Below are positions 7,839-29,500 of a DNA stretch of 64,000 bases, one piece after another. The translations under genes were made by a program, and so were the position numbers. The stretch is taken from NCBI RefSeq assembly GCF_029892045.1, contig NZ_CP120369.1:372001-436000 (forward strand), given 5' to 3'. The stretch is from Sinorhizobium numidicum (GTDB lineage Bacteria; Pseudomonadota; Alphaproteobacteria; Rhizobiales; Rhizobiaceae). Positions within the stretch are counted from its first letter, which is position 1. Each line of letters begins with the position of its first letter. A model generated the notes under the pieces. It was not told where the DNA came from and did not search any database. It worked only from the letters and a program-made list of their open reading frames with translations.

Positions 7839-8582
7839 CTATTTGCCCGGTTCGGCGCCGTCGAAAACAAATTGAATCCGGTCAGCGGCGTAGCAGGTCA
7901 CGTGGCACCATACGGGTCTGCCGTCTGCGTCCACTTCCACTGCTTTTTTCTCGACCACCGGTCTTGATGGAGATTGATCGAGAAGTTTGGCTTCCTCTTC
8001 CGTCGGCATTCGCGCGATGACCTTGGCGGTGCCGGGCCACAAAGAGGCAAATCCAAATTTCGCCATGGCGATTTCGACATCCGCCTCGGGGCCCATAGCC
8101 TCCACGAAGCCTGAGAAGCGAGGCAATTCCAGAAAATTGGTGCTGAATGCCACCGGTCGACCGTTACTTTCCCCAAGTAGCTGTACTGACAGCACGGTCG
8201 TTTTGGGAGCGAGCTCGAGACACGAACATACCCATATGTCGGCTTGCCTACCTTCAGCGTAGATCAGCTTTCGACTTGGCAGCTGGTTGTTGGACCGAAC
8301 ATTCTGAGGAAATGTCACACGCGAGGCCAGGCGGTATTCAAGCACATCGCTTTCGATGAATGCGCCGCGGCCATGCTCGATCCTGATAAGTCCTTTATTC
8401 TGAAGGATTGCAAGCGCCTTGCGAGAGGTCATGCGGCTGACGCCAAATCGTTCGGCGACCTTCGTATCGGCAGGCAGCCGGCCTTCCTCATCGAACGCAC
8501 CTACGAGGATCTCGCGATGCAAGGTCTCCACGATCATTTTCCAGCGGGGTTGTCCTGAGGTCCCAGACGCGTGTGAGCTCAT
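7839..8582 (-). CDS. GntR/UTRA (PhnF/HutC-like) transcriptional regulator
   Basis: 247 residues: an N-terminal GntR winged helix (residues ~15-80; GRLPADTKVAERFGVSRMTS, then GLIRIEHGRGAFIE) and a C-terminal UTRA ligand domain (residues ~95-245). The YRLASRVTFPQN segment recalls the R-x-R-F-S-x-N linker of PhnF, the E. coli phosphonate-operon repressor. It is divergent from the ABC importer operon at 8697, and the intervening 114 bp hold a perfect palindrome (8617-8632) fitting a GntR operator, so it most likely represses that operon and itself. It is a close paralogue of the regulator at 14619-15332. Confidence 0.8.
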   Translation of the reverse strand: MSSHASGTSGQPRWKMIVETLHREILVGAFDEEGRLPADTKVAERFGVSRMTSRKALAILQNKGLIRIEHGRGAFIESDVLEYRLASRVTFPQNVRSNNQLPSRKLIYAEGRQADIWVCSCLELAPKTTVLSVQLLGESNGRPVAFSTNFLELPRFSGFVEAMGPEADVEIAMAKFGFASLWPGTAKVIARMPTEEEAKLLDQSPSRPVVEKKAVEVDADGRPVWCHVTCYAADRIQFVFDGAEPGK

Positions 8583-8616
8583 GATTGATTCTTTCTGTCA
8601 TGCGGCTGTTACAGAA

Positions 8617-8632
8617 ACTCGTATATACGAGT
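8617..8632. promoter_or_regulatory. 16-bp perfect palindrome, likely GntR operator
   Basis: ACTCGTATATACGAGT is its own reverse complement and contains the GT-N-TA-N-AC core of GntR/HutC operators. It sits between the divergent GntR/UTRA gene and the ABC importer operon. Confidence 0.65.
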
Positions 8633-8696
8633 CGCCAATCGCCCGGCAACGAAAGAGATACGTCGGCTGGACGCGCGTGCAAAGTCTCCTCAAACA

Positions 8697-10265
8697 ATGG
8701 ATTTGGCAATGCTCAATCATCCCATTTCCCGCCGCATGTTCAACATCTCACTCGGCGCCTCCGCTCTTGCGGCGATGACTCGCCCAAGTCTGGCGCAAAC
8801 AAGCGCTAACCCGACCAAGGGCGGCCGGCTCAGGATCATGTTGCAAGAGACGGCTTCGTCTTCCCTGCTCGATCCCACCAAGATCGCTTCCTGGGGCGTC
8901 TACTTTGCCTACTCAACCATCGGAGAAAGATTGGTCGGCGTTGACAGCCGCCTCAACCCTGTCGCGATGCTCGCAGAGAGCTGGGAGCCGGTGAACAACA
9001 GGGTCGATGGCTGGGTATTCAAGCTGCGTCGCGGCGTCGAATTCCATAACGGCAAGAGCCTCACGGCGAAGGATGTCATCTCCAGTCTGAACCGCCTTCG
9101 CGACCCGGCTTTGCAGTCGCCGTTGCGCGTCCTTCTTGAGCACATCACCGACCTCATGGAGGAAGATGCGTATACCCTGCGGTTCACGCTTTCCCGCCCG
9201 GATGCAGATTTTCCCCTGCTCCTGGCACAGGATCGGTTCTACATCTTCCCTGAGGGCTTCTCGACCTTTGATAAGCCAATAGGCACTGGTCCTTTTGTGG
9301 CTGATGGATTGAATCCCGCTGGCGTCAATGTCTACCGCCGCTATCAAAACTACTGGCAGAGCGGTAAACCCTATCTGGACGAGGTGGCGTTCCAGGGAAA
9401 CCAGGACGCCGTCGCACGCGTCTCGGCTCTCCTCGCTGGCGATGTGGATGCCGTGCAGTCGATCAACTTCACGCTCGCGACGCGCATCGCGGCAACATCT
9501 GGCTTCCAGGTTGTGTCCTCTCCAAGCGGCGTGCACAACGTCGTTGCGATGCGGACCAACGCAGCGCCCTTTTACCGGCCCGAGCTTCGCGAGGCGATGA
9601 AATACCTGTTCGACCGCGAGCAAATGCGCGATCGCCTTTGCGCCGGCCATGCGCAGATCGGCAATGATCACCCCATCCCGCCCTTCAGCTCGTTCTACCA
9701 TACCGAGTTGCCGGTACGCGCCTATGATCCCGATCGCGCCAAGGCGATCCTGCAGAAAGCGGGCCTGAGCATTCCGTCACAGGTGCTGCATGCCTCCGAC
9801 GCCGTGACGCCCGGCGTTGCGGTTGATCTCGCGCAAATTTACGCCGACGGTGCGCGCAAGGCGGGCATCTCGCTCGAACCGAAGCGCGATCCGGTCACCG
9901 GTTATTGGGACAATGTCTGGCTGAAGCAGCCGCTTATGGTGAGCGGATGGGGCACGCGCTTCACGCCCGACCTTATGCTGCGCGTCGCCTATCGCTCCGG
10001 CGCGAAATGGAACGAAACACACTGGAGCCATCCGAAGGTGGACGCGATGATGGACGAAGCGGTTGCCACCACCGATGTCAACCGGCGTCGCGAACTGTAC
10101 TGGGCGATCCAGGAGGCGATCCACAACGGCGGCGGCGCAGGCATCCCGCTCTTCTTCGATCAACTCGACGCCATCTCCGGCAAGGTGAAAGGCGTTTCAC
10201 CCTCGCCCCTTGGCTCATTGACCGGCCCAGCTATGGCTGACCTTTGGCTTGATCAGAGCGCCTGA
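8697..10265 (+). CDS. ABC transporter substrate-binding protein, family 5 (peptide/opine type)
   Basis: 522-residue periplasmic solute-binding protein of the DppA/OppA type (SBP_bac_5). The N-terminus carries a twin-arginine-like signal (SRRMFNISLGASALAAM, followed by SLAQ cleavage region). Internal family signatures are WVFKLRRGVEFHNGKSLTAK, DAYTLRFTLSRPDADFPLLL and FDKPIGTGPF. It captures the ligand for the two permeases and the fused ATPase encoded next. Family-5 proteins bind peptides, opines, nickel or sugars; the ligand cannot be read from sequence. The ATG at 8709 is an alternative start. Confidence 0.85.
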   Translation: MDLAMLNHPISRRMFNISLGASALAAMTRPSLAQTSANPTKGGRLRIMLQETASSSLLDPTKIASWGVYFAYSTIGERLVGVDSRLNPVAMLAESWEPVNNRVDGWVFKLRRGVEFHNGKSLTAKDVISSLNRLRDPALQSPLRVLLEHITDLMEEDAYTLRFTLSRPDADFPLLLAQDRFYIFPEGFSTFDKPIGTGPFVADGLNPAGVNVYRRYQNYWQSGKPYLDEVAFQGNQDAVARVSALLAGDVDAVQSINFTLATRIAATSGFQVVSSPSGVHNVVAMRTNAAPFYRPELREAMKYLFDREQMRDRLCAGHAQIGNDHPIPPFSSFYHTELPVRAYDPDRAKAILQKAGLSIPSQVLHASDAVTPGVAVDLAQIYADGARKAGISLEPKRDPVTGYWDNVWLKQPLMVSGWGTRFTPDLMLRVAYRSGAKWNETHWSHPKVDAMMDEAVATTDVNRRRELYWAIQEAIHNGGGAGIPLFFDQLDAISGKVKGVSPSPLGSLTGPAMADLWLDQSA

Positions 10266-10271
10266 TCCGCG

Positions 10272-11261
10272 ATGTACGATCATTCGTTGACTTATGAGCG
10301 AGACGAGCGGAGGTCGCCCTTGGCGAACCTTCCCTCGTTTGCTCTTGAATTGGCTATAAGGGTTGCCATTCTTCTGGCTGCTGCTGCCCTGATCTTCTTC
10401 GGGACGGCACTCATTCCTGGCGACTTCGTGACGGAGTTGCTTGGCCAGGACTATACGCCGGAACTTGCCGCCCAGTTGCGCCACAGCCTCGGACTGGATC
10501 GTCCCTTGCCGGAGCGCTTCGTCACCTGGCTGTTTCACTTCCTTCAAGGAGAATTCGGCCAATCGTTCACCAGCCGCATACCGGTCTGGGACGTCGTGGA
10601 GCCGCGTCTTGCCAATACGCTGATGCTTGCCGGTGCCGCTATTTGCTGGTTTCCGCTTGCCCTGGCGGCCGGCGTGGCGTCGTTCCTCGCGCCACCGCAG
10701 ATCCGACGCTTCCTTCAGCTCTTGATGCAAGTCGTGCTCTGCGCACCGGAGTTTCTAATCGCCTATGTGTTCATCTACGTCTTTGCCGTCCAGCTCCAAT
10801 TGCTGCCGGCCGTTTCTCGATTGGCGCCGGATCAGTCGCTATCCGAGCACATTCGCGTCCTCATTCTGCCAAGCGCGTGTCTTGGCGTCGGCATGATCGC
10901 CTATGTCGGTCGCATGCTGCTGTCGCTGTTGCTGATGGAGGAGAAAAAGGATTATTTCGAATTCGCTCGCCTGCGCGGGTTCAGCCGTAGCTGGATTGCG
11001 CTGCGCTATGCGGTTTCGGCGATCCTCCCTTCGATCATCAACCTCCTGCTCATTTACTGCGCCTATCTGCTGACTGGCGTGCTGGTGATCGAGGTAGTGT
11101 TCGGCATTTCCGGCATCGGGGAGTTAGCCGTGTCATCCGTCGTTTGGCGGGACATCCCGGTCCTGCAGTTCTGCGCGGTGTTCATCACTGCCATCTATGT
11201 GGGCATCTACTCACTGTCGGACCTGATAGCCGGCCGAATTAGCAGAAGAGGCGCGCTATGA
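10272..11261 (+). CDS. ABC transporter permease (DppB-like)
   Basis: 329-residue inner-membrane permease with about six transmembrane segments, the LGLDRPLPERFVTWL segment characteristic of DppB/OppB and the EAA-type loop (YFEFARLRGFSRSWIALRYA). Begins 6 bp after the binding protein and its stop overlaps the next start (ATGA at 11258-11261), so it is in the same operon. Confidence 0.85.
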   Translation: MYDHSLTYERDERRSPLANLPSFALELAIRVAILLAAAALIFFGTALIPGDFVTELLGQDYTPELAAQLRHSLGLDRPLPERFVTWLFHFLQGEFGQSFTSRIPVWDVVEPRLANTLMLAGAAICWFPLALAAGVASFLAPPQIRRFLQLLMQVVLCAPEFLIAYVFIYVFAVQLQLLPAVSRLAPDQSLSEHIRVLILPSACLGVGMIAYVGRMLLSLLLMEEKKDYFEFARLRGFSRSWIALRYAVSAILPSIINLLLIYCAYLLTGVLVIEVVFGISGIGELAVSSVVWRDIPVLQFCAVFITAIYVGIYSLSDLIAGRISRRGAL

Positions 11262-12832
11262 GACCAGCCAGCTCCGAACCGCAGCACACTCGAGAAACCT
11301 CCAGTATTCTTGAGGTCAAGAATCTGTCGGCCGTCATATCCAACTCCGCCACTGGTGGTCGGCGCATTGAGAAGCTGGGCATGGAACTGAAGCCCGGCAC
11401 GCTATCAACCATGACCGGGCCCTCCGGCGTCGGCAAGACAAGTCTTTGTCTCGCTCTTATGGGGTGGATGAGACCCAATGTTCGCATCCTGAATGGCGAG
11501 GTGCTTTTGGGCATGCGCCAGGTGCTGCAGATGCAGCAGCGGCAGAAACAGGCTCTGTGGGGACGCGAGATTCTCTACATTCCGCAGTCCTCCGCGACGG
11601 CGCTCGTGGCGTCGCGCGATGTTGTCAGTCAGATCTCCGAATTTGCTCGTGACACCGCGCAAAAGCGGGGGGAACGCCGCGATCTCCTCCAAGCCGCGTT
11701 TCAGCGGCTGGAGGTTCCTGGCTTCGGGGAGGATCGCTACCCGCACCAATATAGCGGCGGGCAATTGCAGCGCATCCTGATCTCGACGGTGTTTTGCGCC
11801 ACGCCACGACTGATCATTCTCGACGAGCCGACAACTGCACTGCACGCAGACCTCAAGGCAGGCGTCATGCGGGACATCAAGGCCCGCGCTCAGGAAATTG
11901 GTGCTGCAGCGCTCGTGATATCGCACGAACTGCCATTCTTCGCTGAGTGTTCAGATCAGACCATCGATCTCAGCGGCTATGTCATTTCGGATGAAAAGCC
12001 GAAGCCGGTGCGTCCGGCGCCACAGGTCATTGCCACACCTCGGTCCTCACATGTATCCCGGTCTTTGCCGGCTGAGCAGCCACGATTGCAAGTCGATGGA
12101 CTTTGCGTCAATGCACCGAGTGGACGTCCGCTGCTTCGCGATGTGGCCTTTCAGGTGCGGCCTGGAGCCTGCCTCGGGGTCATCGGCCGTTCTGGCGCCG
12201 GCAAGACGACGATCCTGCGTAGCTTGCTTGGGCAGCATGGCGATGCCAAGGGCACCATCGAGGTTGATGGCGAGCGGATGCCGTTGTCCTACTCCCGTCG
12301 GACGCTTGAGCAAAAGCGGCGGCTCGAATATGTGCCACAATCGGTGAAGCTGCATTTGAACCCGGCGCTCAGCGCTGACTATCTCCTCCGCAGGCGGCTA
12401 CGCCAGGCTGGGCGCGATCATTCCGACGACTCCGTCGTAAACGTGCTTGGGCAAGTCCTCTTGCCCCCTGACTACCGTCACAAACGGAGCGCTGAACTTT
12501 CGGGGGGCGAGTGTCAACGGCTTGGCATTGCTCTGGCGCTAGCCACCAATCCGGCAGTTTTGCTGCTCGACGAAGTCACGGCGTCGCTCGATCCGGCGAA
12601 CGCGCACGTCATCGCCGATATCCTCGACAAGCACAGGGCCAGCGGCAACATCGCCATGCTTCTCGTCTCGCACCAGCCGGAGATCGTGGCGCGCCTTGCA
12701 AGCGATGTTCTCGAACTGCGTGACGGTCAGGTCGTGCACCCCGTTCGAAAGAAGCATGGACCCTCCGCACCTCGGGTTGTGAATGGGGGAATTTCCTATC
12801 GTGAGAGTGAGCCTCGGCAATGCGCGCTTTGA
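11258..12832 (+). CDS. ABC transporter ATPase, two fused nucleotide-binding domains (DppD-DppF type)
   Basis: 524 residues with two complete ABC cassettes. First: Walker A GPSGVGKTS, signature YSGGQLQ, Walker B LIILDEPTTAL. Second: Walker A GRSGAGKTT, signature LSGGECQ, Walker B VLLLDEVTAS. Peptide importers often encode these separately; here they are one polypeptide. It overlaps the preceding permease by 4 bp and the following permease by 13 bp, so the stoichiometry is translationally coupled. Confidence 0.88.
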   Translation: MRPASSEPQHTRETSSILEVKNLSAVISNSATGGRRIEKLGMELKPGTLSTMTGPSGVGKTSLCLALMGWMRPNVRILNGEVLLGMRQVLQMQQRQKQALWGREILYIPQSSATALVASRDVVSQISEFARDTAQKRGERRDLLQAAFQRLEVPGFGEDRYPHQYSGGQLQRILISTVFCATPRLIILDEPTTALHADLKAGVMRDIKARAQEIGAAALVISHELPFFAECSDQTIDLSGYVISDEKPKPVRPAPQVIATPRSSHVSRSLPAEQPRLQVDGLCVNAPSGRPLLRDVAFQVRPGACLGVIGRSGAGKTTILRSLLGQHGDAKGTIEVDGERMPLSYSRRTLEQKRRLEYVPQSVKLHLNPALSADYLLRRRLRQAGRDHSDDSVVNVLGQVLLPPDYRHKRSAELSGGECQRLGIALALATNPAVLLLDEVTASLDPANAHVIADILDKHRASGNIAMLLVSHQPEIVARLASDVLELRDGQVVHPVRKKHGPSAPRVVNGGISYRESEPRQCAL

Positions 12833-13602
12833 CATTCATTGGCTTCGTGCTGTTCTTCATGGTCACACCGTATGTCATTGGGACATCGGCGGATACATTT
12901 TCGGGCGGCGGCTTGTTCGAAAGCCCGTCGCCGGCACATCCATTGGGGACCGATTATCTCGGGCGTGACATGCTGCTCGAGATCCTTCGAGCGGGTAGCG
13001 TGACGATGTTCATCTGCGCCGCAGCGACGGTGCTGTCGTTAGTGTGCGGGCTCACCTGCGCGGCACTGTCGAGTGCTCTGCCGTCGATCCCGGGGACAAT
13101 CCTTGCACGTGGCATGGACGCCCTGAACTCCATTCCCAGTCTGATCATCGCGTTCGTGCTCATTGCTGCGTTCGGATCGACCACCACGAGCCTCATCGTC
13201 ATCATCACCGTGGTCGAGTTCACGCGAGCCTATCGCTCGCTCAAGGCGCCGGTCATCCAAATCTTCGCCGAGCCATTCGTCGAGCTCTCCCGAATAAGAG
13301 GGGAAGGGTTCGTCTATCTTGTCACGCGAGATGTCTGGCCGAACCTTCGCCCTTACGCAGCAGTCGAACTCGTCAATCGTTTCGTTGCCTGCCTGATGTT
13401 TCTGAGCGCGATCAGCCTGCTCGGGATTGGCGTCCAGCCGCCAACCACCGACTGGGGGACACTGATCAAACTCAATGCAACCGGTCTTTTGCTCAATTCG
13501 GCCGCGCCGCTCATCCCCGGGCTTTTCATTCTCGTCGCCTCGCTGCTCGCGCTTTTTGCTGCCTCCAATGCTTCTCGCCAACTGGACTTCTCAAAATCAT
13601 GA
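12820..13602 (+). CDS. ABC transporter permease (DppC-like)
   Basis: 260-residue permease with the DppC layout: an N-terminal membrane anchor, the HPLGTDYLGRDMLLEILRAG segment shortly after it, and the EAA loop (PFVELSRIRGEGFVYLVTRD). Pairs with the DppB-like permease. Its stop overlaps the start of the TIM-barrel gene (ATGA at 13599). Confidence 0.85.
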   Translation: MRALTFIGFVLFFMVTPYVIGTSADTFSGGGLFESPSPAHPLGTDYLGRDMLLEILRAGSVTMFICAAATVLSLVCGLTCAALSSALPSIPGTILARGMDALNSIPSLIIAFVLIAAFGSTTTSLIVIITVVEFTRAYRSLKAPVIQIFAEPFVELSRIRGEGFVYLVTRDVWPNLRPYAAVELVNRFVACLMFLSAISLLGIGVQPPTTDWGTLIKLNATGLLLNSAAPLIPGLFILVASLLALFAASNASRQLDFSKS

Positions 13603-14591
13603 CGAAAATATTCCTGCATTCCTACGGCCTGCGTTACCAGTATCGTCACAGGCCGGGTTTCGACGTGTTCTCGCTTGTCGATCTGGCTGCCGATCTAGGG
13701 TTCGACGGGCTGAACGTCTCCTGCTTCGAACTCAACAACTATCTCGAAATCTCTGGAATCGAGCCGGCGCATCTTCGCAAGCTTCGTGCCTATCTTGAAA
13801 AGCGCGGCATCCTCATTGACATCGAGACCGCCGGAACCGAGCCGGCGCACCTCGAGAGGTTGCTCGGCATTGCACGGGAAGTCGGTGCAGGGTACTTGCG
13901 GACCTATACGAACGGAACTCCGGATAGGCGGCTTCGGGTTGAGGAAGCCAAAACCAATCTTTCCCAAGCCGCACTTGCAGCCGAGCGGGCCGGCATACCC
14001 GTGCTTCTCGAAAATCACGAGGATCTCGCGGCCTGCGAGGTCGCTGAAATCCTGGAACACGTCTGCAGCCCATGGATACAGGGCATGTTCGACTACGTGA
14101 ACTCAATGCTGTTCTACGAGGATCCATTGACTTCCCTGGAGTTGATGCGTCCTTGGATAAGGTCGGCGCACCTGAAGGATTGTTTGATTCTGCCCCCAGG
14201 GGAGGGTGGCCTGCTCGGCGTGCCGATCGGCGCAGGCCATGCGCCCGTCGCTGAAATGACTGCAGCCCTTGTGAGCTCCGGTGTCGACCGCGTCTGCTTC
14301 GAGAACACCTGGGGTTATCAGGCGGCGATGCGAGATCGCCGGGGGAGCGCCAAATTGGGAAAGGGCTTTTTCCAACATCCCGGCCGGCCACTTCGTGAAC
14401 CTGGTGAATATACTCACGTACACGATCTCCTGGCAAGAGACCCAGGAAGAGTCGCCGAGCTCGAACATTGGGCTCTCCGGCAATCGCTGCAGTGGCTTAA
14501 AGCTGAGCTTCCGGCATTCGCCAACATCAATATCCCCGAACTGATGATGCAACAGGATGCGGCGGAAAGCGCCGCCTTGGCGCACTACTAG
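13599..14591 (+). CDS. Sugar phosphate isomerase/epimerase-like TIM-barrel protein
   Basis: 330 residues of the xylose-isomerase-like / AP-endonuclease-2 TIM-barrel family. Probable metal-binding segments are LLENHEDL (Glu, His), GMFDYVNS (Asp) and SAHLKD (His), with a late CFENTWGY Glu. It is the last gene of the importer operon, translationally coupled to the permease, so it probably acts on the imported compound (isomerase, epimerase or lyase step). The exact substrate is unknown. Inosose-type enzymes of rhizopine catabolism belong to the same fold, but nothing here proves that role. Confidence 0.75.
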   Translation: MTKIFLHSYGLRYQYRHRPGFDVFSLVDLAADLGFDGLNVSCFELNNYLEISGIEPAHLRKLRAYLEKRGILIDIETAGTEPAHLERLLGIAREVGAGYLRTYTNGTPDRRLRVEEAKTNLSQAALAAERAGIPVLLENHEDLAACEVAEILEHVCSPWIQGMFDYVNSMLFYEDPLTSLELMRPWIRSAHLKDCLILPPGEGGLLGVPIGAGHAPVAEMTAALVSSGVDRVCFENTWGYQAAMRDRRGSAKLGKGFFQHPGRPLREPGEYTHVHDLLARDPGRVAELEHWALRQSLQWLKAELPAFANINIPELMMQQDAAESAALAHY

Positions 14592-14618: not shown

Positions 14619-15332
14619 CTACTCGCGATCAAATACAAACTTTATTCGGTCCGCCGCATAACAGGCGACGTGGTATCGAAATGGCTCTTCTTCATCGTCT
14701 AAGTCGGCATTTTCCTTCTGTACTACCGGTCGCGCCATTGATTGATCTAAGAGAGCAGCCTCCTCAGACGTCGGCATCCGCGCAAACACTGTAATAGCCT
14801 TCGATTTGAGCCTGCTAACACCGTAGGCGAGAAGAGCGCGCTCAACGTCAACCTGCTCTCCCATTGCTTCAACAAATTTGCCGTATCGTTGAGCATCTAA
14901 GAAGCTTCGGCTAATTGCGAGAGGACGGTTGCCCACAAACCTGAGCAAATCAATGATCAACAGACCGGTCCCCTCGGGAATTCGCAAGCGATCAGCAATT
15001 TCCGGAGCTGCAGTTTCGAATCTGTGAGACAAAAGCTGCCGCCGCGTTTGGCTGTCACTCTCTAGAATGTTCTGCGAACAAGCCATTCTATGTAAAATGC
15101 GGTATTGAATGACGTCTTGTTCAATAAACGTCCCTTTTCCGTGCACAATTCGGATTAGCCCCTTACTCTGCAAACTCGCCAGCGCCTTCCGGGCGGTCAG
15201 CCGACTAGCGCCGAAGCGCTTAGCCACTTCGCTGTCCGCTGGCAGAGTCCCGTCGGGTCCAAATGCTCCTGTGAGAATTTCTTTCGAGAGGGCCTCTTCA
15301 ATTACCCGCCATTTTGCTTGTTTACTATTCAC
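14619..15332 (-). CDS. GntR/UTRA (PhnF-like) transcriptional regulator, second copy
   Basis: 237 residues, strongly similar to the regulator at 7839-8582 in both the winged helix (TLPADSEVAKRFGASRLTAR, then GLIRIVHGKGTFIE) and the UTRA domain, ending YHVACYAADRIKFVFDRE. The recognition helices differ at only a few positions, so they may read related operators. It is the last gene of the minus-strand cluster that starts at 23.6 kb, 49 bp after the methyltransferase, and is convergent with the importer operon. Likely a repressor of the cluster; the effector is unknown. Confidence 0.8.
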   Translation of the reverse strand: MNSKQAKWRVIEEALSKEILTGAFGPDGTLPADSEVAKRFGASRLTARKALASLQSKGLIRIVHGKGTFIEQDVIQYRILHRMACSQNILESDSQTRRQLLSHRFETAAPEIADRLRIPEGTGLLIIDLLRFVGNRPLAISRSFLDAQRYGKFVEAMGEQVDVERALLAYGVSRLKSKAITVFARMPTSEEAALLDQSMARPVVQKENADLDDEEEPFRYHVACYAADRIKFVFDRE

Positions 15333-15381: not shown

Positions 15382-16167
15382 TCACCATCTGGTCTTCAGC
15401 TGTACAGTCCAACTCGTGGTTTCATGCGGCAATCGAAGTTCTCGAACGCCGCCAGTCTGCCCTTCAATCCAGGAAAGCAGTTCTTCCCACCGTTCTGCGC
15501 CGACCTGACTGGGGATGTCGTGCACCCCACGCCAGGACAACAAAAAGCGCTCTGGATTTTTTAAGACGATATGCTGACGATGAATCTGCAAGCACTCCGT
15601 AAATGTATCGGGGAGATGAATGACATCCTTGAGGCGCGCCATCAGGTCGCGTACGCCGGGTATGACCCGCTTAAGTCCAGGAAAAGTAGTGGAGATATGA
15701 TTTTCTATCACGGTCCGTATTTCGCAGTTTTGCTGATCAGGTAAGCAAAACATGATCGAAAGAAAGCCGCCGGGCCGGAGTATTCTCCTCATCTCATGTA
15801 AAGTGGCCTGCGGATCCATCCAATGGAAAGCATTACTAACAATCGCCCAATCCACTGAATGGTCGGGCAATGAAGTGTTCTCTCCTGTTCCGGACCGCCA
15901 TTCAAACGCTTGAGAAGCGGCCATTAGTCGCTTCCCTTCACTAAGCATTTCGCCATTGGGCTCGACCGCAAATCCTCTCAAGTGTCGAGACGAAAGGTCA
16001 ATGGTTAGCTTCCCAGTTCCGGCCCCAATATCCGCAACAGTGAAGTCGACGTTCGACGCACATACATGACCCGTCAGAAGATCTAGGACAACGTGGTCGT
16101 AATCAGCCCGTGCAACGTAGTAGGAGGCGGTAGTGGAGAAGTCGCCGTATTTGTAGTTTACGTTCAT
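15382..16167 (-). CDS. Class I SAM-dependent methyltransferase
   Basis: 261 residues. Motif I is VADIGAGTGKLT; acidic loop AVEPNGEM; motif II region SVDWAIVSNAFHWMD; then RRILRPGGFLSIMF. The ATG at 16167 is preceded by GAGGAG at 6 nt. The substrate is not evident. It is a paralogue of the methyltransferase immediately upstream (16322-17098): both share the YGDFS/FGDFS start, FAVEP and HDIPSQ segments, which points to tandem duplication and two related methylations. Confidence 0.8.
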   Translation of the reverse strand: MNVNYKYGDFSTTASYYVARADYDHVVLDLLTGHVCASNVDFTVADIGAGTGKLTIDLSSRHLRGFAVEPNGEMLSEGKRLMAASQAFEWRSGTGENTSLPDHSVDWAIVSNAFHWMDPQATLHEMRRILRPGGFLSIMFCLPDQQNCEIRTVIENHISTTFPGLKRVIPGVRDLMARLKDVIHLPDTFTECLQIHRQHIVLKNPERFLLSWRGVHDIPSQVGAERWEELLSWIEGQTGGVRELRLPHETTSWTVQLKTRW

Positions 16168-16321
16168 GATCAACTCCTCTATTGAGCCCCGTCCAAAGTT
16201 AGCAACCTTCGCTCTATGATTGGAAATGCAGTGGACGAATAAATGGCTGAGATTGCCGCCAATACTGAATAACGGAACTCATACTGATCTATTCATCGAC
16301 TATTATATGCGGGCTCGGATT

Positions 16322-18675: not shown

Positions 18676-18783
18676 CCCCGAGACTTCATAGCCGCTGGCA
18701 GCGCTGCTCGGTGAAAATGACGACCTTATGAACATGGCGCGATCCCTGAAAGCGGCGGCACAATGCCTAACGTTGCCGATCAA

Positions 18784-22074: not shown

Positions 22075-22983
22075 CTAAACCTTCCTGCCGATCATCTGGA
22101 TGCAGCCGTCACCAAACCAAAATCTCGCAACCGGGTGGTCGTAGTTGAGGTACATTGGAGCGAGATAGCGGCGGAGATTGTGAAAGCCTTTGGTATACCG
22201 CGAAATTCTTCGCACATCGCTGAAGCCATTCTCGGCGAACCATGAGCGAATTTGCTCTTCGGTAAAATCGAATTCGTGATATGTCGGCGCCTGGAGCCGG
22301 TCGCGCAGAGTCACGAAAAGGTCGTCATCGAACAGGCTCCGAACGAAGTCGTCTTCGCCTTCAAGAAGAGGGCATTCGTTTTGGTTCTTGACGGCTAGCA
22401 GCCAATTGAGCGCCTCCTTCGCTGTCCGCCCGTCAAGATCGTCGATCGTCCGCCGGAACCCAGCATCGGACGTATAGAGCGCGCGTAGGTGATTGATGCA
22501 ACGATAGAGAACTCCGTTTCCAGTGCCCATGATGGTCAGGAAGAAATGGCCGCTCGGTCGCGTCACTCGCGCCAGTTCATCAAAGCCCCGTCGCGGATCA
22601 GCCGTGTGGGGCAAGACACCCGCGCAATGCACCAAATCAAAATCTCGGTCATCAAAAGGCAAGTCCAACACGCTCCCGCCAACGAGCGCCGATCTCATGC
22701 CGAAACTCGAAAGGCGCCGCGCAGCACAATCCATCCACTCCTGCCCAAGCTCGAGCGAGGTGACCTTTGCGGCACCCTTTTCTAGAAATGCAAAGGATGC
22801 ATTTGCGTTGGACCCGCAGCCGGCGTCGAGAATACTAAGTCCTTTGAAGCCACCGGGATCGAATCCGAAGTATTCTTCGTCGACCAACGAGACCAATCTG
22901 GTGAAGATATGCTCGTCATTCTCTTGCTGCCGCTGGTGACGATCAAAAACCGCGCGTGTTTCGATTTCAAGAGTCGTTTCCAT
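22075..22983 (-). CDS. SAM-dependent methyltransferase
   Basis: 302 residues. Motif I is LSILDAGCGSNANASF; then KVTSLELGQEWMD, VLDLPFDDRDFDLVHCAGVL, HTADPRRGFDEL and a long C-terminal part (HEFDFTEEQIRSWFAENGF). The ATG at 22983 has an ideal GGAGGAG site; an in-frame GTG 15 bp upstream is less likely. It follows the CDP-alcohol phosphotransferase with an 18-bp gap, so it is in the same transcript. Confidence 0.8.
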   Translation of the reverse strand: METTLEIETRAVFDRHQRQQENDEHIFTRLVSLVDEEYFGFDPGGFKGLSILDAGCGSNANASFAFLEKGAAKVTSLELGQEWMDCAARRLSSFGMRSALVGGSVLDLPFDDRDFDLVHCAGVLPHTADPRRGFDELARVTRPSGHFFLTIMGTGNGVLYRCINHLRALYTSDAGFRRTIDDLDGRTAKEALNWLLAVKNQNECPLLEGEDDFVRSLFDDDLFVTLRDRLQAPTYHEFDFTEEQIRSWFAENGFSDVRRISRYTKGFHNLRRYLAPMYLNYDHPVARFWFGDGCIQMIGRKV

Positions 22984-23001
22984 AACTCCTCCTCCCACCG
23001 T

Positions 23002-23619
23002 CTACGATGTAAATGCTGTCGCCAGCAGCGCAATCGAAGCCCCTGCCGCAAGCGCGAGATTCGTCAACCTCAACGCGTTCCCGGTCCCGGGATATTTGAG
23101 ATTGGAGAGATGAAGTACGGACAATATCAACGCTGCGCCGATCAAAATAGCGCCGAGTTGCTGGATCACGAAAAGGCGGTTTGCGGCAAAGATCGTCGCC
23201 AATACAAACAGGTCATTGTTCAACGGCAGCCCTCTGCTGAATCCGTCTGCATCCAGCCCAAACGTCGAAAAGTAGCTGAGGCGGAGAGCTCCTGACAGGA
23301 CGAGGCAGACAGCGGCCAGAAAGGCCGGACCAGAGAACGCGTTGAAACATAAGATTAGCACAGCCGGAAACACGGCTGCGTAGACTAGATCCGCAAATCC
23401 ATCGAAGGCGGCTCCGACTTGCGCCGTTGGAGCCGATCTATTTGAGGAGCTTTTGGCGATCATGCCGTCCGCGTCATCCGCAAGAAGCGCCCACAAGGCA
23501 AAACAGATGCCGATTTCAAACTGCCCAACCATAGCAAAGTATATAGCGGTCGTAGCGAAGATGAGTCCAAGCGCCGTGACGGCATTTGCAGCATCGAAGA
23601 GATATTTTATCATCGCCAC
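23002..23619 (-). CDS. CDP-alcohol phosphatidyltransferase-family membrane enzyme
   Basis: 205-residue integral membrane protein with about six hydrophobic segments. It carries the family motif D-x2-D-G-x2-A-(R/K)...G-x3-D-x3-D as DDADGMIAK then GAAFDGFAD. The gap between A-K and the G is 12 residues where PssA/PgsA enzymes have 8-9, and Arg is replaced by Lys, so its donor or acceptor may be atypical. These enzymes displace CMP from a CDP- or CMP-activated substrate with an alcohol. With a phosphonate cytidylyltransferase 5 kb away, a CMP-phosphonate donor is conceivable (inference). The start is GTG 23619 or ATG 23613. Confidence 0.78.
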   Translation of the reverse strand: MAMIKYLFDAANAVTALGLIFATTAIYFAMVGQFEIGICFALWALLADDADGMIAKSSSNRSAPTAQVGAAFDGFADLVYAAVFPAVLILCFNAFSGPAFLAAVCLVLSGALRLSYFSTFGLDADGFSRGLPLNNDLFVLATIFAANRLFVIQQLGAILIGAALILSVLHLSNLKYPGTGNALRLTNLALAAGASIALLATAFTS

Positions 23620-24917: not shown

Positions 24918-25019
24918 CATACGATCCTCACAATCGGTTCATCCGCTTCATTGGTGAAAATCTTATCCGCTTTCGTGGCTACGTCAGGTGACGGGTGAAG
25001 GACCTCGGGAAGGAATAGC

Positions 25020-25736
25020 TTGGAGATGTGGCTCTGTGAAAAATTGCCCCAGTGTCGTGGAATAGAAATGCCGAGTTTAGCTTGTGGGCCCACGATGCGC
25101 GGAAAAGCCGATCGAGCCTACGATGCGGTCCTGCAGTTGCTCTATAGCTGCACTCACATGCCAGGGCAGCATCTTAATGAAAAAGAGCTAGCCTCCAAAC
25201 TCAACATCGGCCGGACTCCAGTTCGCGAAGCACTGATCCGGCTCGCTGCAGAAGGAAGGATCGTATCCGTTCCTCGAGAAGGCTTCTTCACGCGGCCATT
25301 GCTCGAGTGGGCTCTGCTGGATTCCTACATCATAGCCCGCCAAATTCTCACCTTTGCACTAACGCGTGTACAGCCCCGAGCATCCCACCACTCTTTGTCC
25401 TCCGATGTGTCATCTCCGTCGGTACTCGCTCTCCAGGCGGAAACGATATTCGCGGTGATAGCGCAGGGGTCGTCAAGCTGCGAGCTTTGCCAGATCATCG
25501 AGAAATTTTGTTTTGGCTCCCATCCTCTGCGCATGGAAATAGCCGCGTCAGAGCTCTCTCCTGGTTTCGAGGCGAGTCTCGCAAGGCTCACAGACGTCAT
25601 GCCTCAGTTCGGCAAGACGCCGGACGTGGTGAAATCCGCATTGATGAACCACTTAGATTTTGAGGAAGCAGCGATACCCGGGGTTCTACAAGAGTTCAGC
25701 AGACGACGGCTGGAAAGCTTCCCGTTAATCACGTAG
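25020..25736 (+). CDS. GntR-family regulator (FadR/FCD-like)
   Basis: 238 residues. The winged helix is at residues ~35-100 (RAYDAVLQLLYSCTHMPGQH, ELASKLNIGRTPVREALIRL, VSVPREGFF). The C-terminal helical part is short and diverged from the FCD metal-binding domain, and I do not see its conserved His set. Start taken as the TTG at 25020 after GGAAGGA; ATGs at 25026, 25068 or 25095 are possible. It lies upstream of the phosphonate genes on the same strand, separated by an IS remnant, so control of them is possible but unproven. Confidence 0.7.
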   Translation: MEMWLCEKLPQCRGIEMPSLACGPTMRGKADRAYDAVLQLLYSCTHMPGQHLNEKELASKLNIGRTPVREALIRLAAEGRIVSVPREGFFTRPLLEWALLDSYIIARQILTFALTRVQPRASHHSLSSDVSSPSVLALQAETIFAVIAQGSSSCELCQIIEKFCFGSHPLRMEIAASELSPGFEASLARLTDVMPQFGKTPDVVKSALMNHLDFEEAAIPGVLQEFSRRRLESFPLIT

Positions 25737-25739
25737 ACG

Positions 25740-26530: not shown

Positions 26531-27454
26531 ATGAACAGGTCAACTTCATTTCCGGCCAGCGGCGAAGTGTCGTCACCGACCATCTCATCGGCAATTCTTC
26601 GTGAACTCATTCTTTCGAGTGATCTCACATTTCTGATGGAAGCGCATGACGGACTGTCGGCAGCTATCGCTGAGCGCGCGGGGTTCAAGGGCCTGTGGGC
26701 TTCTGGCCTTTCGATCTCCTCGGTCCTTGGCTATCGGGATGCCAGCGAAGCAAGTTGGACGCAGATCGTCGACATAGTCGAACGCATCGTCGATGCAACC
26801 AGTATTCCGGTTCTCGTCGACGGCGACAGCGGTTTTGGTAATTTCAATAACGCTCGCATTGTCGCACGCAAGCTTGAACAACGCGGTGCCGCCGGGCTGT
26901 GCCTTGAGGACAAGCAGTTCCCAAAAACGAACTCCTTCGTCGGCGACAGACATGCGTTAGCCGATATCGACGAATTTTCCGGACGCCTCAAGGCTGTAAA
27001 GGACACCACCGGACCCGGTTTCGTTCTCGTCGCCCGCATCGAGGCGATGATCGCCGGCCACGGTATCGACGAGGCAATTGTTCGAGCCGACGCATATGCG
27101 GAAGCCGGTGCCGACGCCATCCTCATCCACTCCCGCAAGCCGGTTGCTGACGAGATCCTGGCCTTTGCCAAGGAATGGAACAACAAGTTGCCAGTCGTCA
27201 TAGTGCCGACGAAATACTACAAGACGCCGGTTTCAGCCTATCGCGATGCCAGAATTTCCACCGTCATCTGGGCTAACCACACGATGCGAGCGGCCATTGC
27301 CGGCATGCGCCACATCTGCGGCCGAATTCATGCGGAACAAAGCGTTGCGGCTATTGAGGACGAAGTTGCCGGCCTTGATGAGCTGTTCAGGCTGATGGCC
27401 TATGACGAGCTGGCTAAGGCGGAAGAGCAGTATCTGCCGAAACAAACAACGTAG
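26531..27454 (+). CDS. pepM: Phosphoenolpyruvate phosphomutase
   Basis: 307 residues of the isocitrate lyase/PEP mutase superfamily. The diagnostic PEP mutase signature E-D-K-x5-N-S is present as EDKQFPKTNS (residues 126-135). Other family segments are FLMEAHDGLSAAIAERAGFK, GLWASGLSISSVLGYRD, LVDGDSGFGN (metal-binding Asp) and ARIEAMIAGHG. The enzyme converts PEP to phosphonopyruvate, the committed step of nearly all known phosphonate biosynthesis. The equilibrium favours PEP, so a following step must pull it forward. No phosphonopyruvate decarboxylase gene is seen; the next gene is an aminotransferase 46 bp downstream. Confidence 0.9.
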   Translation: MNRSTSFPASGEVSSPTISSAILRELILSSDLTFLMEAHDGLSAAIAERAGFKGLWASGLSISSVLGYRDASEASWTQIVDIVERIVDATSIPVLVDGDSGFGNFNNARIVARKLEQRGAAGLCLEDKQFPKTNSFVGDRHALADIDEFSGRLKAVKDTTGPGFVLVARIEAMIAGHGIDEAIVRADAYAEAGADAILIHSRKPVADEILAFAKEWNNKLPVVIVPTKYYKTPVSAYRDARISTVIWANHTMRAAIAGMRHICGRIHAEQSVAAIEDEVAGLDELFRLMAYDELAKAEEQYLPKQTT

Positions 27455-27500
27455 CCGCCGAAGGGGCGTGAACCCGTAGAACGGTAGTGGGGGGGTGCAC

Positions 27501-28691
27501 ATGCTTGCGCAAAGGACAAACCTGTTTAGTTCATCGGGGACGGCCGCGGCACGCGCGGCAGCAAAAGCAGCCGCCGATGCCGGCATGGAAATAATCGATC
27601 TCACCGCCGGAGAAATATGGACCAACCTCGCGCCTGTCATTCGTGATGGCGCGATCGAGGCCATCAATAAGGGCATCAACCGTTACACCGAAACGATCGG
27701 CACTATGGAGCTGCGAGAGGCGCTGGCAAGGAAGATTTCGCTCGATACTGGCCAGATCTGGAAGGCCGAAGAGATAGCTGTGACGTCCGGCGCCAAGCAG
27801 GCTTTGTTCAACGCCGCGATGGTGCTCCTGAACCCCGGCGACGCGGTGATCATCCCGGCGCCCTATTGGACGACGTTTCCGGCGCAGGTGCTGATTGCCG
27901 GCGGCACCCCAGTCTTCGTCGATACGGGCACAAGCGGCTATGTGCCTCGCGTTGTGGATATCAAGGCAGCGGTAACGGATCGGACGCGGGCTATTGTCAT
28001 CAACACGCCCAACAATCCCACGGGCGCCGTTTACGACGTCCCGACACTGCGCGGCATCGCCGATCTCGCCGTCAAAAGGAATCTCTGGATCATTTTCGAC
28101 GAATGCTACGGCGACTTCGTGCATGGGCACCACACGCATCACCCGATCGCCTCGATAATTCCAGGGGTGCGCTCGCGTACCCTGATCGTCAACGGGTTCA
28201 GCAAATCGCTTGCTCTAACCGGCTGGCGGATCGGCTACCTTGCGGGTCCGAAAGAGGTGATCAATGCCGTTAAAGCATTTCAGTCGCACACGACTTCCAA
28301 CCCCAATGTGATCGCGCAGCACGCGGTGCTCGCCCACTTGCAACGCGGGGATGGAGCCTATGAAAGCAAGCTGCGGTCACAGCTCGCCAGTGCCAGGCAG
28401 ATGGGCCTTGACGTCCTTTCCTCACTGACGCGCGTCCCTGTGCCGAAAGCCGCAGGCGGCTTCTATTTCTATCTCAATCTTTCACGTCTGCTGCAGTCGG
28501 CATCCGGAAACGGCGGCCGGACAACAGCCGATGATATAGTCGATTCGTTGCTCTCGGAAGCCGGCGTCGCAGCTGTTTCGGGTACCACATTCGGTGATCC
28601 TACCGGTCTTCGTCTCTCTTACGGGATTCCACCCGAAAGGCTTCGGATTGGCTTGAGCCGGCTTGTCGAGGTTCTCAACGCTTGGCAATGA
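27501..28691 (+). CDS. Class I aminotransferase (candidate phosphonopyruvate aminotransferase)
   Basis: 396-residue fold-type I PLP enzyme of the AspC-like group: NRYTETIGTMELREALARKI, TSGAKQALFNAAMVLLNPGD, NTPNNPTGAVY, FDECYGDFV and the PLP lysine in NGFSKSLALTGWRIGYLAG. Located between PEP mutase and the cytidylyltransferase, it probably aminates phosphonopyruvate to phosphonoalanine (2-amino-3-phosphonopropionate), which would drive the mutase forward. The alternative, 2-aminoethylphosphonate formation, would need a decarboxylase not seen here. The ATG at 27501 follows a G-rich site; the GTG at 27495 is possible. Confidence 0.82.
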   Translation: MLAQRTNLFSSSGTAAARAAAKAAADAGMEIIDLTAGEIWTNLAPVIRDGAIEAINKGINRYTETIGTMELREALARKISLDTGQIWKAEEIAVTSGAKQALFNAAMVLLNPGDAVIIPAPYWTTFPAQVLIAGGTPVFVDTGTSGYVPRVVDIKAAVTDRTRAIVINTPNNPTGAVYDVPTLRGIADLAVKRNLWIIFDECYGDFVHGHHTHHPIASIIPGVRSRTLIVNGFSKSLALTGWRIGYLAGPKEVINAVKAFQSHTTSNPNVIAQHAVLAHLQRGDGAYESKLRSQLASARQMGLDVLSSLTRVPVPKAAGGFYFYLNLSRLLQSASGNGGRTTADDIVDSLLSEAGVAAVSGTTFGDPTGLRLSYGIPPERLRIGLSRLVEVLNAWQ

Positions 28692-28726
28692 CACCCGTCA
28701 CTTGTGCAACGAAGAAGGGGAATGCA

Positions 28727-29500
28727 ATGCCCATTACTGGACCGAAAAAGGCGGTCATTCTCGCCGCCGGTTTGGGCTCACGTCTGCGTCCGCTGACCGA
28801 TCTGCAACCGAAACCGCTCGTCAAGGTCAACGGCACGCCGATCCTCCACAATGCCTTGCGCAACCTCGAGGCGGTCGGCGTCCAGGAGGTGACGATCGTC
28901 GTCGGCTACCGCAAAGATGCCATTCAGTATGCCTGCGGCAGGCGCTTCGGCGGACTCGAGATCAACTATGTCGAGTCATCCCTCTTCGAGCGTACGGGCA
29001 GCGCCTATTCCCTTTGGCTGGCGCGGGACACTTTGCTGTCCGGCGACTGCTATGTTCTCGAAGGCGACGTTTTCTTCGAAGAGGATGCGCTACGCTGCCT
29101 GATGATGGCCGATGCGCTGAATGCCGCGGCGGTCGCACCTTTCGATTCTTCGATGGAAGGCTCAGGCGTTGTGGTCGCTAAGGACGGCCTAATATTCGAA
29201 GTCAGATTGAACCAGACGGCGGCCAGCCTCCTATCGGACGGGCCTTCGCTATTCAAGACGATGAATCTATTGCGCTTTTCCAGCATTGCGCTGAGCATGA
29301 CGATCGTTCCGGCCCTGGACGAGCTCATCGGCTCCGGTGCGTCGAAAGCCTACACGGAGGAAGTGCTTGCTTATCTCATCGAGAAGCGCGGGCTGCAACT
29401 CGCCGCTGCACGCTGCGACGACCAAAGGTGGTACGAGATCGACAGTGTAGGTGATCTGCGAGTCGCCGAACGCATCTTCGGCACGCAAGCACTTGGATAG
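28727..29500 (+). CDS. Nucleotidyltransferase, PntC/LicC-like (phosphonate CTP transferase)
   Basis: 257 residues of the NTP_transferase family: KAVILAAGLGSRLRPLTDLQ (nucleotide loop), KPLVKVNGTPILHNALRNLE, TIVVGYRKDAIQ, AYSLWLAR and VLEGDVFFEED (metal Asp). The layout matches small cytidylyltransferases that activate phosphocholine (LicC) or 2-aminoethylphosphonate (PntC). Being third in the PEP mutase operon, 35 bp after the aminotransferase, it probably makes a CMP-phosphonate for transfer to a lipid or glycan. No fused transferase domain is present, so a separate transferase must act; a CDP-alcohol phosphotransferase is encoded at 23002-23619. Confidence 0.82.
   Translation: MPITGPKKAVILAAGLGSRLRPLTDLQPKPLVKVNGTPILHNALRNLEAVGVQEVTIVVGYRKDAIQYACGRRFGGLEINYVESSLFERTGSAYSLWLARDTLLSGDCYVLEGDVFFEEDALRCLMMADALNAAAVAPFDSSMEGSGVVVAKDGLIFEVRLNQTAASLLSDGPSLFKTMNLLRFSSIALSMTIVPALDELIGSGASKAYTEEVLAYLIEKRGLQLAAARCDDQRWYEIDSVGDLRVAERIFGTQALG

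Follow-up and report, generated by a model that had tools for sequence, protein, structure and literature searches.

A phosphonate gene block beside an SBP_5-type importer on a Sinorhizobium numidicum NodA plasmid: a candidate rhizopine-like system

The agrocinopine opines of Ti plasmids are phosphodiester-type compounds whose systems include a phosphodiesterase and an importer of the SBP_5 type. The system proposed here would share these three traits, and would differ in its phosphonate core and bacterial producer, whereas agrocinopines are made by plant cells. Rhizopines serve symbiotic bacteria as nutrients of their own, which they produce and later recover. The rhizopine (L-3-O-methyl-scyllo-inosamine) system mos/moc, as outlined in PMC10107442, has NifA-type control of its synthesis genes, linked import and catabolism genes on the symbiosis plasmid, and a patchy distribution. 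In Mesorhizobium loti R7A, according to a 2013 report, pepM, aatA and asnB are strongly expressed in nodules and NifA2-dependent: lacZ fusions gave 2456 (aatA), 827 (pepM) and 862 (asnB) units in nodules, 16, 8 and 22 units in a nifA2 mutant, and less than 20 units in broth, with aatA::lacZ showing the highest nodule value among the R7A fusions listed. Mutants in the three genes formed a fully effective symbiosis, i.e. the genes are dispensable for fixation; the authors considered direct activation by NifA highly unlikely and treated the genes as metabolic functions, and the part of the report at hand proposes no joint pathway. Two phosphonate routes are also close: the phosphonoalamide route, in which the PepM PnaD works with PnaA, a transaminase of the aspartate aminotransferase superfamily (PMC11867202), and the PntC/LicC type of activation, in which a LicC-like nucleotidyltransferase adjoins PEP mutase (PMC6697681).

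We analysed a stretch of 64,000 nucleotides from Sinorhizobium numidicum (the window), in which a block at 7839..29500, carried on a 629-kb NodA plasmid (contig C3), contains the following genes.

7839..8582, minus strand: PhnF-like GntR/UTRA repressor 1 (UTRA 56.3 bits; TIGR02325 154.4 bits, just under the cut-off of 156.8)
8697..10265, plus strand: substrate-binding protein, SBP_bac_5 family (PF00496, 228.7 bits)
10272..11261, plus strand: ABC permease 1 (BPD_transp_1)
11258..12832, plus strand: ABC ATPase with two ABC domains (ABC_tran, two stretches)
12820..13602, plus strand: ABC permease 2 (BPD_transp_1)
13599..14591, plus strand: xylose-isomerase-like TIM barrel (AP_endonuc_2, 55.5 bits, on a longer reading frame)
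14619..15332, minus strand: PhnF-like GntR/UTRA repressor 2 (TIGR02325 164.8 bits, above the cut-off of 156.8)
15382..16173, minus strand: SAM methyltransferase MT1 (Methyltransf_11)
16322..17149, minus strand: SAM methyltransferase MT2 (family scan; 16322-17098 with the RefSeq start)
17095..18735, minus strand: SelA/DgaE-like PLP enzyme (TIGR01437 151.6 bits, cut-off 385.3; PDB 8t7j and 7lc0; start per RefSeq)
19149..21044, minus strand: AsnB-type glutamine amidotransferase (Asn_synthase 223.5 bits, GATase_6/7)
21137..21946, minus strand: formyltransferase (Formyl_trans_N 71.9 bits; 21137-21772 with the RefSeq start)
22075..22998, minus strand: SAM methyltransferase MT3 (family scan)
23002..23619, minus strand: CDP-alcohol phosphotransferase (NCBIfam archaetidylserine synthase and pssA models below their cut-offs; Asp motif; RefSeq name)
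25020..25736, plus strand: third GntR regulator (GntR 58.4 bits)
26531..27454, plus strand: phosphoenolpyruvate mutase, PepM/AepX (TIGR02320 342.2 bits, cut-off 319.55; PDB 1m1b, 355.9 bits)
27495..28691, plus strand: aspartate-type aminotransferase, predicted phosphonopyruvate transaminase (Aminotran_1_2, 215 bits; top PDB matches are aspartate aminotransferases)
28682..29500, plus strand: LicC/PntC-like nucleotidyltransferase, predicted CTP:phosphonate cytidylyltransferase (NTP_transferase)

An earlier note on this DNA had listed most of these genes, and family scans and RefSeq names recover every gene that it named: the three methyltransferases, the formyltransferase, AsnB and the SelA/DgaE-like enzyme (all by family scans), and a complete ABC importer (SBP_bac_5 protein, two permeases and one ATPase with two ABC domains) with its TIM barrel. 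The two PhnF-like repressors, described there as paralogous, share 47.9% identity. The third GntR regulator, which was absent from that list, adjoins the PEP mutase gene; it is 98% identical in S. garamanticum and found in the same place in loci L005 (98%) and L006 (89%).

Phosphonate biosynthesis is indicated by a PEP mutase that scores above its cut-off and has an aminotransferase gene adjacent; its alignment shows EDKQFPKTNS, in which EDK...NS is what we take to be the PEP mutase catalytic motif. The best PDB match of the nucleotidyltransferase is the CTP:phosphocholine cytidylyltransferase 1jyk (62.5 bits). The CDP-alcohol phosphotransferase matches its families weakly (archaetidylserine synthase, 58.2 bits against a cut-off of 200), has no Pfam match at E 0.001 and no PDB match at E 0.01, and was not recovered by a PF01066 search of its own genome; its putative assignment is consistent with both the Asp motif and the RefSeq name. 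D46, D49, G50, A53, G67, D71 and D75 are invariant across 13 aligned sequences, following D-x2-DG-x2-A-R...G-x3-D-x3-D, presumably the motif of this family, with the Arg replaced by Lys in the window. PEP mutase, the aminotransferase, the nucleotidyltransferase and the phosphotransferase make up a core that should activate a phosphonate and join it to an alcohol. The pairing of PEP mutase with a member of the aspartate aminotransferase superfamily is shared with the phosphonoalamide route, but no ATP-grasp peptide ligase was found among the scanned genes of the block, and nucleotidyl activation followed by CDP-alcohol transfer is predicted instead. Compared with the PntC/LicC type, the window nucleotidyltransferase is a separate protein rather than a fused one, no surface-glycan genes (glycosyltransferase or LicD-type) were identified among the scanned genes of the block, and importer and C-P lyase are frequent partners of such cores.

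Among the tailoring genes, MT1 has an 82% identical homologue in R. jaguaris next to the same repressor, MT2 is a paralogue of MT1 (38%), the SelA/DgaE-like enzyme carries SGGK as a motif when aligned with its family, and the formyltransferase shares 54% identity with a formyltransferase in the vicinity of the S. garamanticum cluster. A relationship between window MT1 and the S. fredii MT1 that lies behind a NifA-type promoter was rejected (no BLAST match at 1e-3).

The substrate-binding protein is the sole PF00496 match on its plasmid, and importer and core lie 5.4 kb apart on this NodA plasmid, so that synthesis and uptake genes are linked in the way known from rhizopines. The gene of repressor 1 is divergent from the importer genes, and repressor 1 has 85–88% identical counterparts in R. 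jaguaris, Microvirga and Phyllobacterium, where they accompany the same type of importer. A 79% identical homologue of the TIM barrel in Microvirga is followed by phnM-phnGHIJKL; the S. numidicum strain has a C-P lyase (PhnJ) on another contig (C1), and in its genome neither a relative of the S. fredii phosphodiesterase nor an above-cut-off phosphonopyruvate hydrolase was found. In other loci, the import modules combine C-P lyase with a phosphodiesterase of type I, which is the reverse of the synthetic steps. In genome G248, the importer adjoins an aminotransferase and a phosphonopyruvate hydrolase (377.1 bits, cut-off 374.4), which may form a phosphonoalanine route. A plasmid of Microvirga sp. 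VF16 carries F-, G- and W-type importer modules (substrate-binding protein identity 83–88%). C-P lyase genes accompany every one of these modules, with nine PhnJ altogether, and the plasmid showed no biosynthetic core.

We propose that the block probably encodes both synthesis and recycling of a soluble phosphonate that would act as a rhizopine. What is observed directly is the gene content, the conserved linkage and the promoter sequence described below, together with the published nodule expression of the R7A counterparts. In the scheme that we infer, which covers all reactions, the identity of the alcohol, export, and uptake of the product by the window importer, PEP mutase would convert PEP to phosphonopyruvate, the aminotransferase would pull this towards phosphonoalanine, the nucleotidyltransferase would form a CMP-phosphonate, and the CDP-alcohol phosphotransferase would transfer the phosphonyl group to an alcohol, with amidation, formylation, methylation and a SelA-like step as finishing reactions. 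The tailoring operon would be switched on by NifA/sigma54 in nitrogen-fixing bacteroids; the compound would leave the nodule and be imported by free-living kin via the SBP_5 system, derepressed through the PhnF-like repressors; either a phosphodiesterase or the TIM-barrel enzyme would cleave its ester, and C-P lyase, here encoded on another replicon, the C-P bond. Likeness to mos/moc would lie only in the way of working (NifA-type control, linkage, patchiness, and dispensability of the R7A counterpart for fixation), not in chemistry: a C-P compound from PEP is predicted rather than an inositol amine, no NifA promoter is visible before the PEP mutase operon of the window, and general family scans of 7.8-29.5 kb named neither mosB nor mosDEF (inositol-amine chemistry).

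A predicted NifA/sigma54-type promoter precedes the SelA-MT2-MT1-PhnF2 operon and consists of two elements.

18924..18940, minus strand: sigma54 -24/-12 element CTGGCACGGTACGTGCT (10 of 11 consensus positions; the -24 element is 204 nt before the SelA start)
18985..19000, minus strand: NifA upstream activator sequence TGTCGGAAATGCGACA (TGT-N10-ACA; lies 61 nt before the -24 element)

This combination of activator and -24/-12 pair is the single instance found in the 64 kb (mean of 0.05 at this score in 100 shuffled windows). The scored search recovered it with GTGC; it had escaped two -24/-12 patterns restricted to TTG or ATG at -12, which gave no NifA promoter anywhere in the block. By the scored test, the PEP mutase, CDP-alcohol, AsnB and formyltransferase units of the window have no NifA promoter, and the pattern used for FixK boxes found none at 7.8-30.2 kb. 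Across 13 loci, 10 of 28 biosynthetic units had a NifA-type promoter (at least 9/11) in the preceding 1 kb, vs none of 10 importer or regulator units, where gene starts were set manually (some approximately) and some units may share an operon; the units tested in L005, L014, L015, L017, L018 and L105 had none. An earlier promoter search had covered 27 chosen sequences. The R7A island genes (ICEMlSymR7A msi327-msi320, including pepM, aatA, asnB and msi321) have the same core as the window. The R7A-type locus L016, with a PEP mutase 74% and an aminotransferase 81% identical to those of the window, contains the msi321-320 and msi332-331 promoter sequences exactly as published; in L016 and L073, a CobD-like enzyme replaces the SelA-like one, the importer is of another type, and C-P lyase lies inside the cluster. 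The comparison with rhizopines made in the earlier note thus gains backing from the conserved linkage, the window NifA-type promoter and the published nodule expression of the R7A counterparts.

An alternative is a bioactive phosphonate (antibacterial or plant-acting) made in nodules, with importer and C-P lyase serving only phosphorus salvage or self-protection. Phosphonates are often inhibitors (PMC11867202), and R. jaguaris has an MFS transporter gene behind a NifA-type promoter with NRPS genes nearby. However, the import modules resemble dedicated catabolic operons and occur without a core on the Microvirga plasmid, and the fully effective R7A mutants disfavour an essential plant effect (not an antibacterial one); we regard this explanation as unlikely.

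In the clusters with a close phosphotransferase (window included), MT3 adjoins the phosphotransferase, an SBP_5 importer lies nearby in 12/12 (of non-orthologous types), and several also contain a phosphodiesterase and C-P lyase. NodA is present in 12/12 of the genomes or plasmids with a close phosphotransferase vs 0/3 of the distant genomes. In another alternative, the core would supply the bacteroid surface with a head group of phosphonolipid or phosphonoglycan type, and the importer would be a separate phosphonate scavenger. CDP-alcohol phosphotransferases usually make lipids, which speaks for such a product. So does the view, in PMC6697681, that nucleotidyl activation of bacterial phosphonates serves mostly surface glycans and lipids. 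Against it, the core is repeatedly linked to SBP_5 importers, phosphodiesterase and C-P lyase, and the block shows none of the surface-glycan gene types named above. Out of the earlier wording 'phosphonate or phosphonolipid', the phosphonate cluster stands; a phosphonolipid is less likely because the partner importers are SBP_5 systems for soluble compounds, several of them beside phosphodiesterase and C-P lyase, and we consider a head group quite improbable.

Among 27 loci where one contig carries both PEP mutase and CDP-alcohol phosphotransferase, the stretch read contains an SBP_5-type importer in 18, as compared to 1 (L089) of 8 control loci with a fused PEP mutase and no phosphotransferase. 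The other nine (L021, L023, L059, L060, L063, L070, L071, L102 and L104) have none in the stretch read, where L063 ends at a contig end and L102 and L104 were judged by annotation. The count takes three Agrobacterium core records as one (phosphotransferase by annotation) and leaves out L013 and L019 (PEP mutase on another stretch; both with importer) and R. jaguaris plasmid b (PEP mutase far away). The ORF comparison left out L001-L004, L010 and L011, and the homologue lists are bounded by E limits that differ per search (1e-60, 1e-15, 1e-10, 1e-80, 1e-100 and 1e-150). Five importer kinds with 24–34% mutual identity adjoin cores whose PEP mutase is at least 73% identical to that of the window. 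On six plasmids, random placement would bring importer and core as close together as observed with a probability of 0.04–0.28 each. G248 and G265 have core and importer without NodA, so the pairing is not restricted to symbiosis.

The three blocks were expected to co-occur across genomes if they belong together: their linkage does recur, but not as one fixed unit. The window importer type occurs without a biosynthetic PEP mutase match on the same plasmid in Microvirga (beside C-P lyase) and in R. jaguaris (beside a nucleotidyltransferase/GHMP-kinase/CDP-alcohol set), and its exact pairing with the core was seen in this window alone among the loci compared. The separate homologues of the three blocks, this importer type apart from the PEP mutase core and the 9/27 loci would fit chance neighbours on transporter-rich accessory plasmids, an explanation that we find very improbable given that the window importer is the sole SBP_5 system on its plasmid and that the linkage recurs with non-orthologous importers (18/27 vs 1/8).

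A phosphonate metallophore re-imported with its metal, hinted at by matches of the window substrate-binding protein to NCBIfam nickel and staphylopine binder models (all below cut-off) and by Agrobacterium clusters in which the core is accompanied by genes for ornithine cyclodeaminase and cysteine-synthase-like proteins, both of which occur in metallophore pathways, is highly improbable, since C-P lyase and phosphodiesterase in several import modules of rhizobia point to degradation, and PhnF-like repressors suggest phosphonate sensing.

The phosphonate rhizopine reading rests on the importer linkage against its control and the five importer kinds beside related cores; on the phosphodiesterase/C-P lyase import modules and the NifA-type promoters before biosynthetic rather than importer units; and on R7A nodule expression, NodA co-occurrence and the core-less Microvirga modules. 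Counted against it were the window importer type unseen beside other PEP mutase cores, the core loci with no importer and the L089 control, as well as the promoter-less window units, the R7A authors' view against direct NifA activation, a genome lacking a phosphodiesterase relative or above-cut-off hydrolase, and G248 and G265. Among the papers listed in literature searches, none joins phosphonates and rhizopines beyond unrelated genome surveys; subscription journals were thinly covered, so absence is unproven. In PMC3732241, NGR234 bacteroids strongly induce phosphonate transporters, which its authors read as phosphorus limitation; uptake inside the nodule is thus also possible, and phosphonate synthesis there would be costly.

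More tentatively, and short of an even chance in our judgement, phosphonates may be a class of nodule-made opines with variable products, built by one PEPM-AT-NTase-CDP-alcohol core, with a dedicated importer and breakdown module for every product. Such systems would have spread on symbiosis plasmids or islands in Sinorhizobium, Rhizobium, Mesorhizobium and Aminobacter; plasmids of Agrobacterium have related cores, and non-producing scavengers (e.g. Microvirga sp. VF16) would collect several import modules. If the rhizopine reading is true, the R7A island genes published in 2013, strongly nodule-expressed yet dispensable, would gain a role, carbon-phosphorus chemistry would join the opine idea as a new chemical kind of rhizopine, and the phosphorus economy of nodules would be tied to how free-living rhizobia compete. 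Since pepM, aatA and asnB mutants have been described, this reading is directly testable.

We also note a group of five phosphotransferases (L064-L068, 34–36%) with no PEP mutase match in the stretch, one of which (L067) is accompanied by an SBP_5 importer (27%).

The best reading of the cluster at 7839..29500, held with moderate confidence, is a rhizopine-like phosphonate system. By analogy, such a system would function as a rhizopine does, its product being made by nodule bacteria and reclaimed by free-living kin; we do not class it with the inositol-amine rhizopines. The genes that the earlier note had named in this block were borne out by Pfam and NCBIfam, and a third GntR regulator was found in addition.

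The PEP mutase (PEPM) of the window scores above the curated cut-off and keeps the EDK...NS motif, and the family scans of the block's genes brought up no phosphonopyruvate decarboxylase. The adjoining aminotransferase (AT) is of the aspartate type, like PnaA, which is described as converting phosphonopyruvate to phosphonoalanine (PMC11867202). The closest PDB entry to the nucleotidyltransferase (NTase) is CTP:phosphocholine cytidylyltransferase, and related enzymes are described as turning phosphonates into CMP conjugates (PMC6697681). Following nucleotidyl activation, the CDP-alcohol phosphotransferase would pass the phosphonyl group to an alcohol; we infer the reaction order PEPM, AT, NTase, phosphotransferase.

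Every cluster with a close phosphotransferase has an SBP_5 importer, and three forms of it can be told apart.

Importer forms and the clusters that carry them
F type (importer, type I phosphodiesterase, PhnF and C-P lyase): CJ3sym with the R7A island, S. fredii 83666, S. meliloti 4H41, R. gallicum, S. chiapasense
G type (DeoR regulator and importer, phosphodiesterase-family gene nearby): six Mesorhizobium/Aminobacter loci, S. garamanticum, R. mayense, R. jaguaris plasmid b
W type: the window

Among the loci compared, a W-type importer beside the PEP mutase core was seen nowhere but in the window. PEP mutase and a CDP-alcohol phosphotransferase occur together at 27 of the loci read. An SBP_5-type importer lies in the stretch at 18 of them and is missing from it at nine (L021, L023, L059, L060, L063, L070, L071, L102 and L104); C-P lyase genes are present at two of these nine, L023 and L071. 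The control set was eight loci (L078-L084, L089) that have a fused-type PEP mutase and no phosphotransferase in the stretch, and among these L089 alone has such an importer. Five importer kinds share 24-34% mutual identity. Six plasmids, each bearing between one and three SBP_5 genes that pass the cut-off, were compared with random placement, under which such closeness of core and importer has a probability of 0.04-0.28; these values are not independent, because clusters of the same type have a common origin.

Other settings were also observed. On R. jaguaris pRCCGE525a (L007, 1-44430), large NRPS and NRPS/PKS genes flank a W-type importer and a kinase/NTase/CDP-alcohol set on both sides. Three Agrobacterium/R. 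rhizogenes loci (L098, L099 and L101; two pTi plasmids and one pAt plasmid) have a PEP mutase core ~72% identical, accompanied by ornithine cyclodeaminase, alanine racemase, cysteine-synthase-like, sugar-phosphate-isomerase-like and SBP importer genes; in a fourth record read, L100, the surroundings of PEP mutase differ. R. leguminosarum Vaf10 (L103, 19785-23889) has one phosphonate cluster with two AsnB-like genes, and on R. gallicum plasmid NZ_CP017104.1 (L105, 1-43001) the C-P lyase genes are grouped with the synthesis genes, flanked by nifS/nifQ/rpoN on one side and nifHDK on the other.

A pattern-based scan of 84,980 species genomes, using an alignment of four phosphotransferases and two peptide patterns (so that more distant relatives can be missed), yielded nine loci in rhizobia (72-79% identity) and three in other alphaproteobacteria (38-44%), 12 in all. 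The phosphotransferase follows PEPM-AT-NTase directly in 9 of the 12; the sequence of L013 ends after the NTase, L012 has its PEP mutase ~25 kb off on the same contig, and L019 has the two genes on separate contigs. NodA was found in 12 of 12 cases, comprising the nine rhizobial genomes, the window's genome (on the window's own contig, G000:C3:81934) and the plasmids of S. garamanticum and S. fredii CCBAU 83666. No NodA was found in the three genomes with distant loci, and it is also absent from the plasmid records of R. jaguaris (plasmid a), Microvirga and Phyllobacterium, which hold importers only or other gene sets. Phosphotransferase relatives occur in 62 plasmid records (E 1e-10; 8 at >=60% identity), all from Rhizobium, Sinorhizobium, Mesorhizobium or Bradyrhizobium; Microvirga plasmids are absent from these matches. 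Within the family, 14 of 394 genomes have a match (E 1e-15), and of the 13 besides the window's, NodA is found in four (G639, G370, G450 and G670) and not in nine. The match coordinates of G639 and G370 equal those of G297 and G305, so these two probably repeat the genomes already counted as L012 and L020. The coordinates of G670 are those of S. terangae plasmid NZ_CP121661.1; here (L094, 977-3338) a SelA-like/MT2 pair lies ~10 kb from the core, whose own SelA-like ORF is short.

The window's minus strand has TGTCGGAAATGCGACA 61 nt before TGGCACGGTACGTGC; the latter lies 204 nt before the SelA-like gene, at the head of the SelA-MT2-MT1-PhnF2 run. No other UAS and -24/-12 pair of this kind turned up in the 64 kb (over 100 shuffles, the mean per window was 0.05 pairs at 10/11 positions and 0.3 at 9), and in R. 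jaguaris a pair with spacing 60 and a nearly identical -24/-12 element precedes MFS-MT1-PhnF2. Across 13 loci, a NifA-type promoter was found within 1 kb upstream of 10 of 28 biosynthetic units (seven at 10/11, three at 9/11) and of 0 of 10 importer or regulator units; there was none within this distance in L005 (S. garamanticum), L014, L015, L017, L018 and L105, or for the window's other four biosynthetic units.

Locus L016 contains the exact -24/-12 strings printed for ICEMlSymR7A msi321-320 and msi332-331, so its PEP mutase, aminotransferase and AsnB genes should be msi327, msi326 and msi323. For R7A pepM, aatA and asnB, beta-galactosidase is reported to reach 827, 2456 and 862 in nodules, against 7.7, 16.2 and 22.0 when nifA2 is mutated and <20 in broth, and mutants in the three genes are fully effective in symbiosis; the authors saw no NifA promoter at these genes and deemed direct activation highly unlikely (PMC3538637). 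In L016, a candidate NifA promoter that has an altered first base and a UAS lies 203 nt before the PEP mutase gene. Phosphonate transporters are described as strongly induced in NGR234 bacteroids (PMC3732241), which counts against a simple picture.

Synthesis would end in an alcohol ester of a phosphonate, and, judged by protein family, the import-side genes fit this predicted product: of the phosphodiesterase family, one protein from an F and one from a G module were scanned and both match PF01663, and C-P lyase is present in the F modules. A search run without a positive control found no match to the S. fredii phosphodiesterase in the window's genome, nor does any phosphonopyruvate hydrolase there pass the cut-off; the genome's one PhnJ is on a contig other than the block's. 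At a guess, the TIM-barrel enzyme may stand in for the phosphodiesterase. Genome G248 has the core, an AsnB-like gene, an EamA transporter and an SBP_5 importer in this order, followed on the opposite strand by genes for an aminotransferase and for a phosphonopyruvate hydrolase that passes the cut-off; G265 is similarly arranged, with a stop in its hydrolase match. These two opposite-strand genes correspond to the breakdown route of phosphonoalanine. Since G248 and G265 have core and importer without NodA, the recycling pair may predate its symbiotic use.

The 1.4-Mb Microvirga sp. VF16 plasmid (NZ_CP069355.1) has a W module (SBP 88%, TIM barrel 79%) followed by phnM-phnGHIJKL, and, elsewhere, F and G modules (SBP 83% each), each with its own C-P lyase genes; nine PhnJ matches were found. 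Two PEP-mutase-like matches have 40-41% identity to the window's, and the one of them that was scanned passes the cut-off as a phosphonopyruvate hydrolase. The plasmid (L008, L091, L092, L110 and L111) has no fewer than five loci with an SBP_5 importer, and two genes resembling phosphonopyruvate hydrolase.

The 629-kb S. numidicum plasmid NZ_CP120372.1, of an isolate from Argyrolobium uniflorum, is 100% identical over the 24 kb of the window tested. In the RefSeq annotation, the sequence some 7 to 35 kb past the block has a carbamoyltransferase, a glmS copy and an RND pair, which we take to be nodU, nodM and nolFG, together with cbb3 oxidase genes and fixLJ. The carbamoyltransferase, ~7 kb from the cluster, adjoins a sugar O-acetyltransferase (35986-38683), and from their RefSeq names the two are presumably NodU-like and NodL-like.
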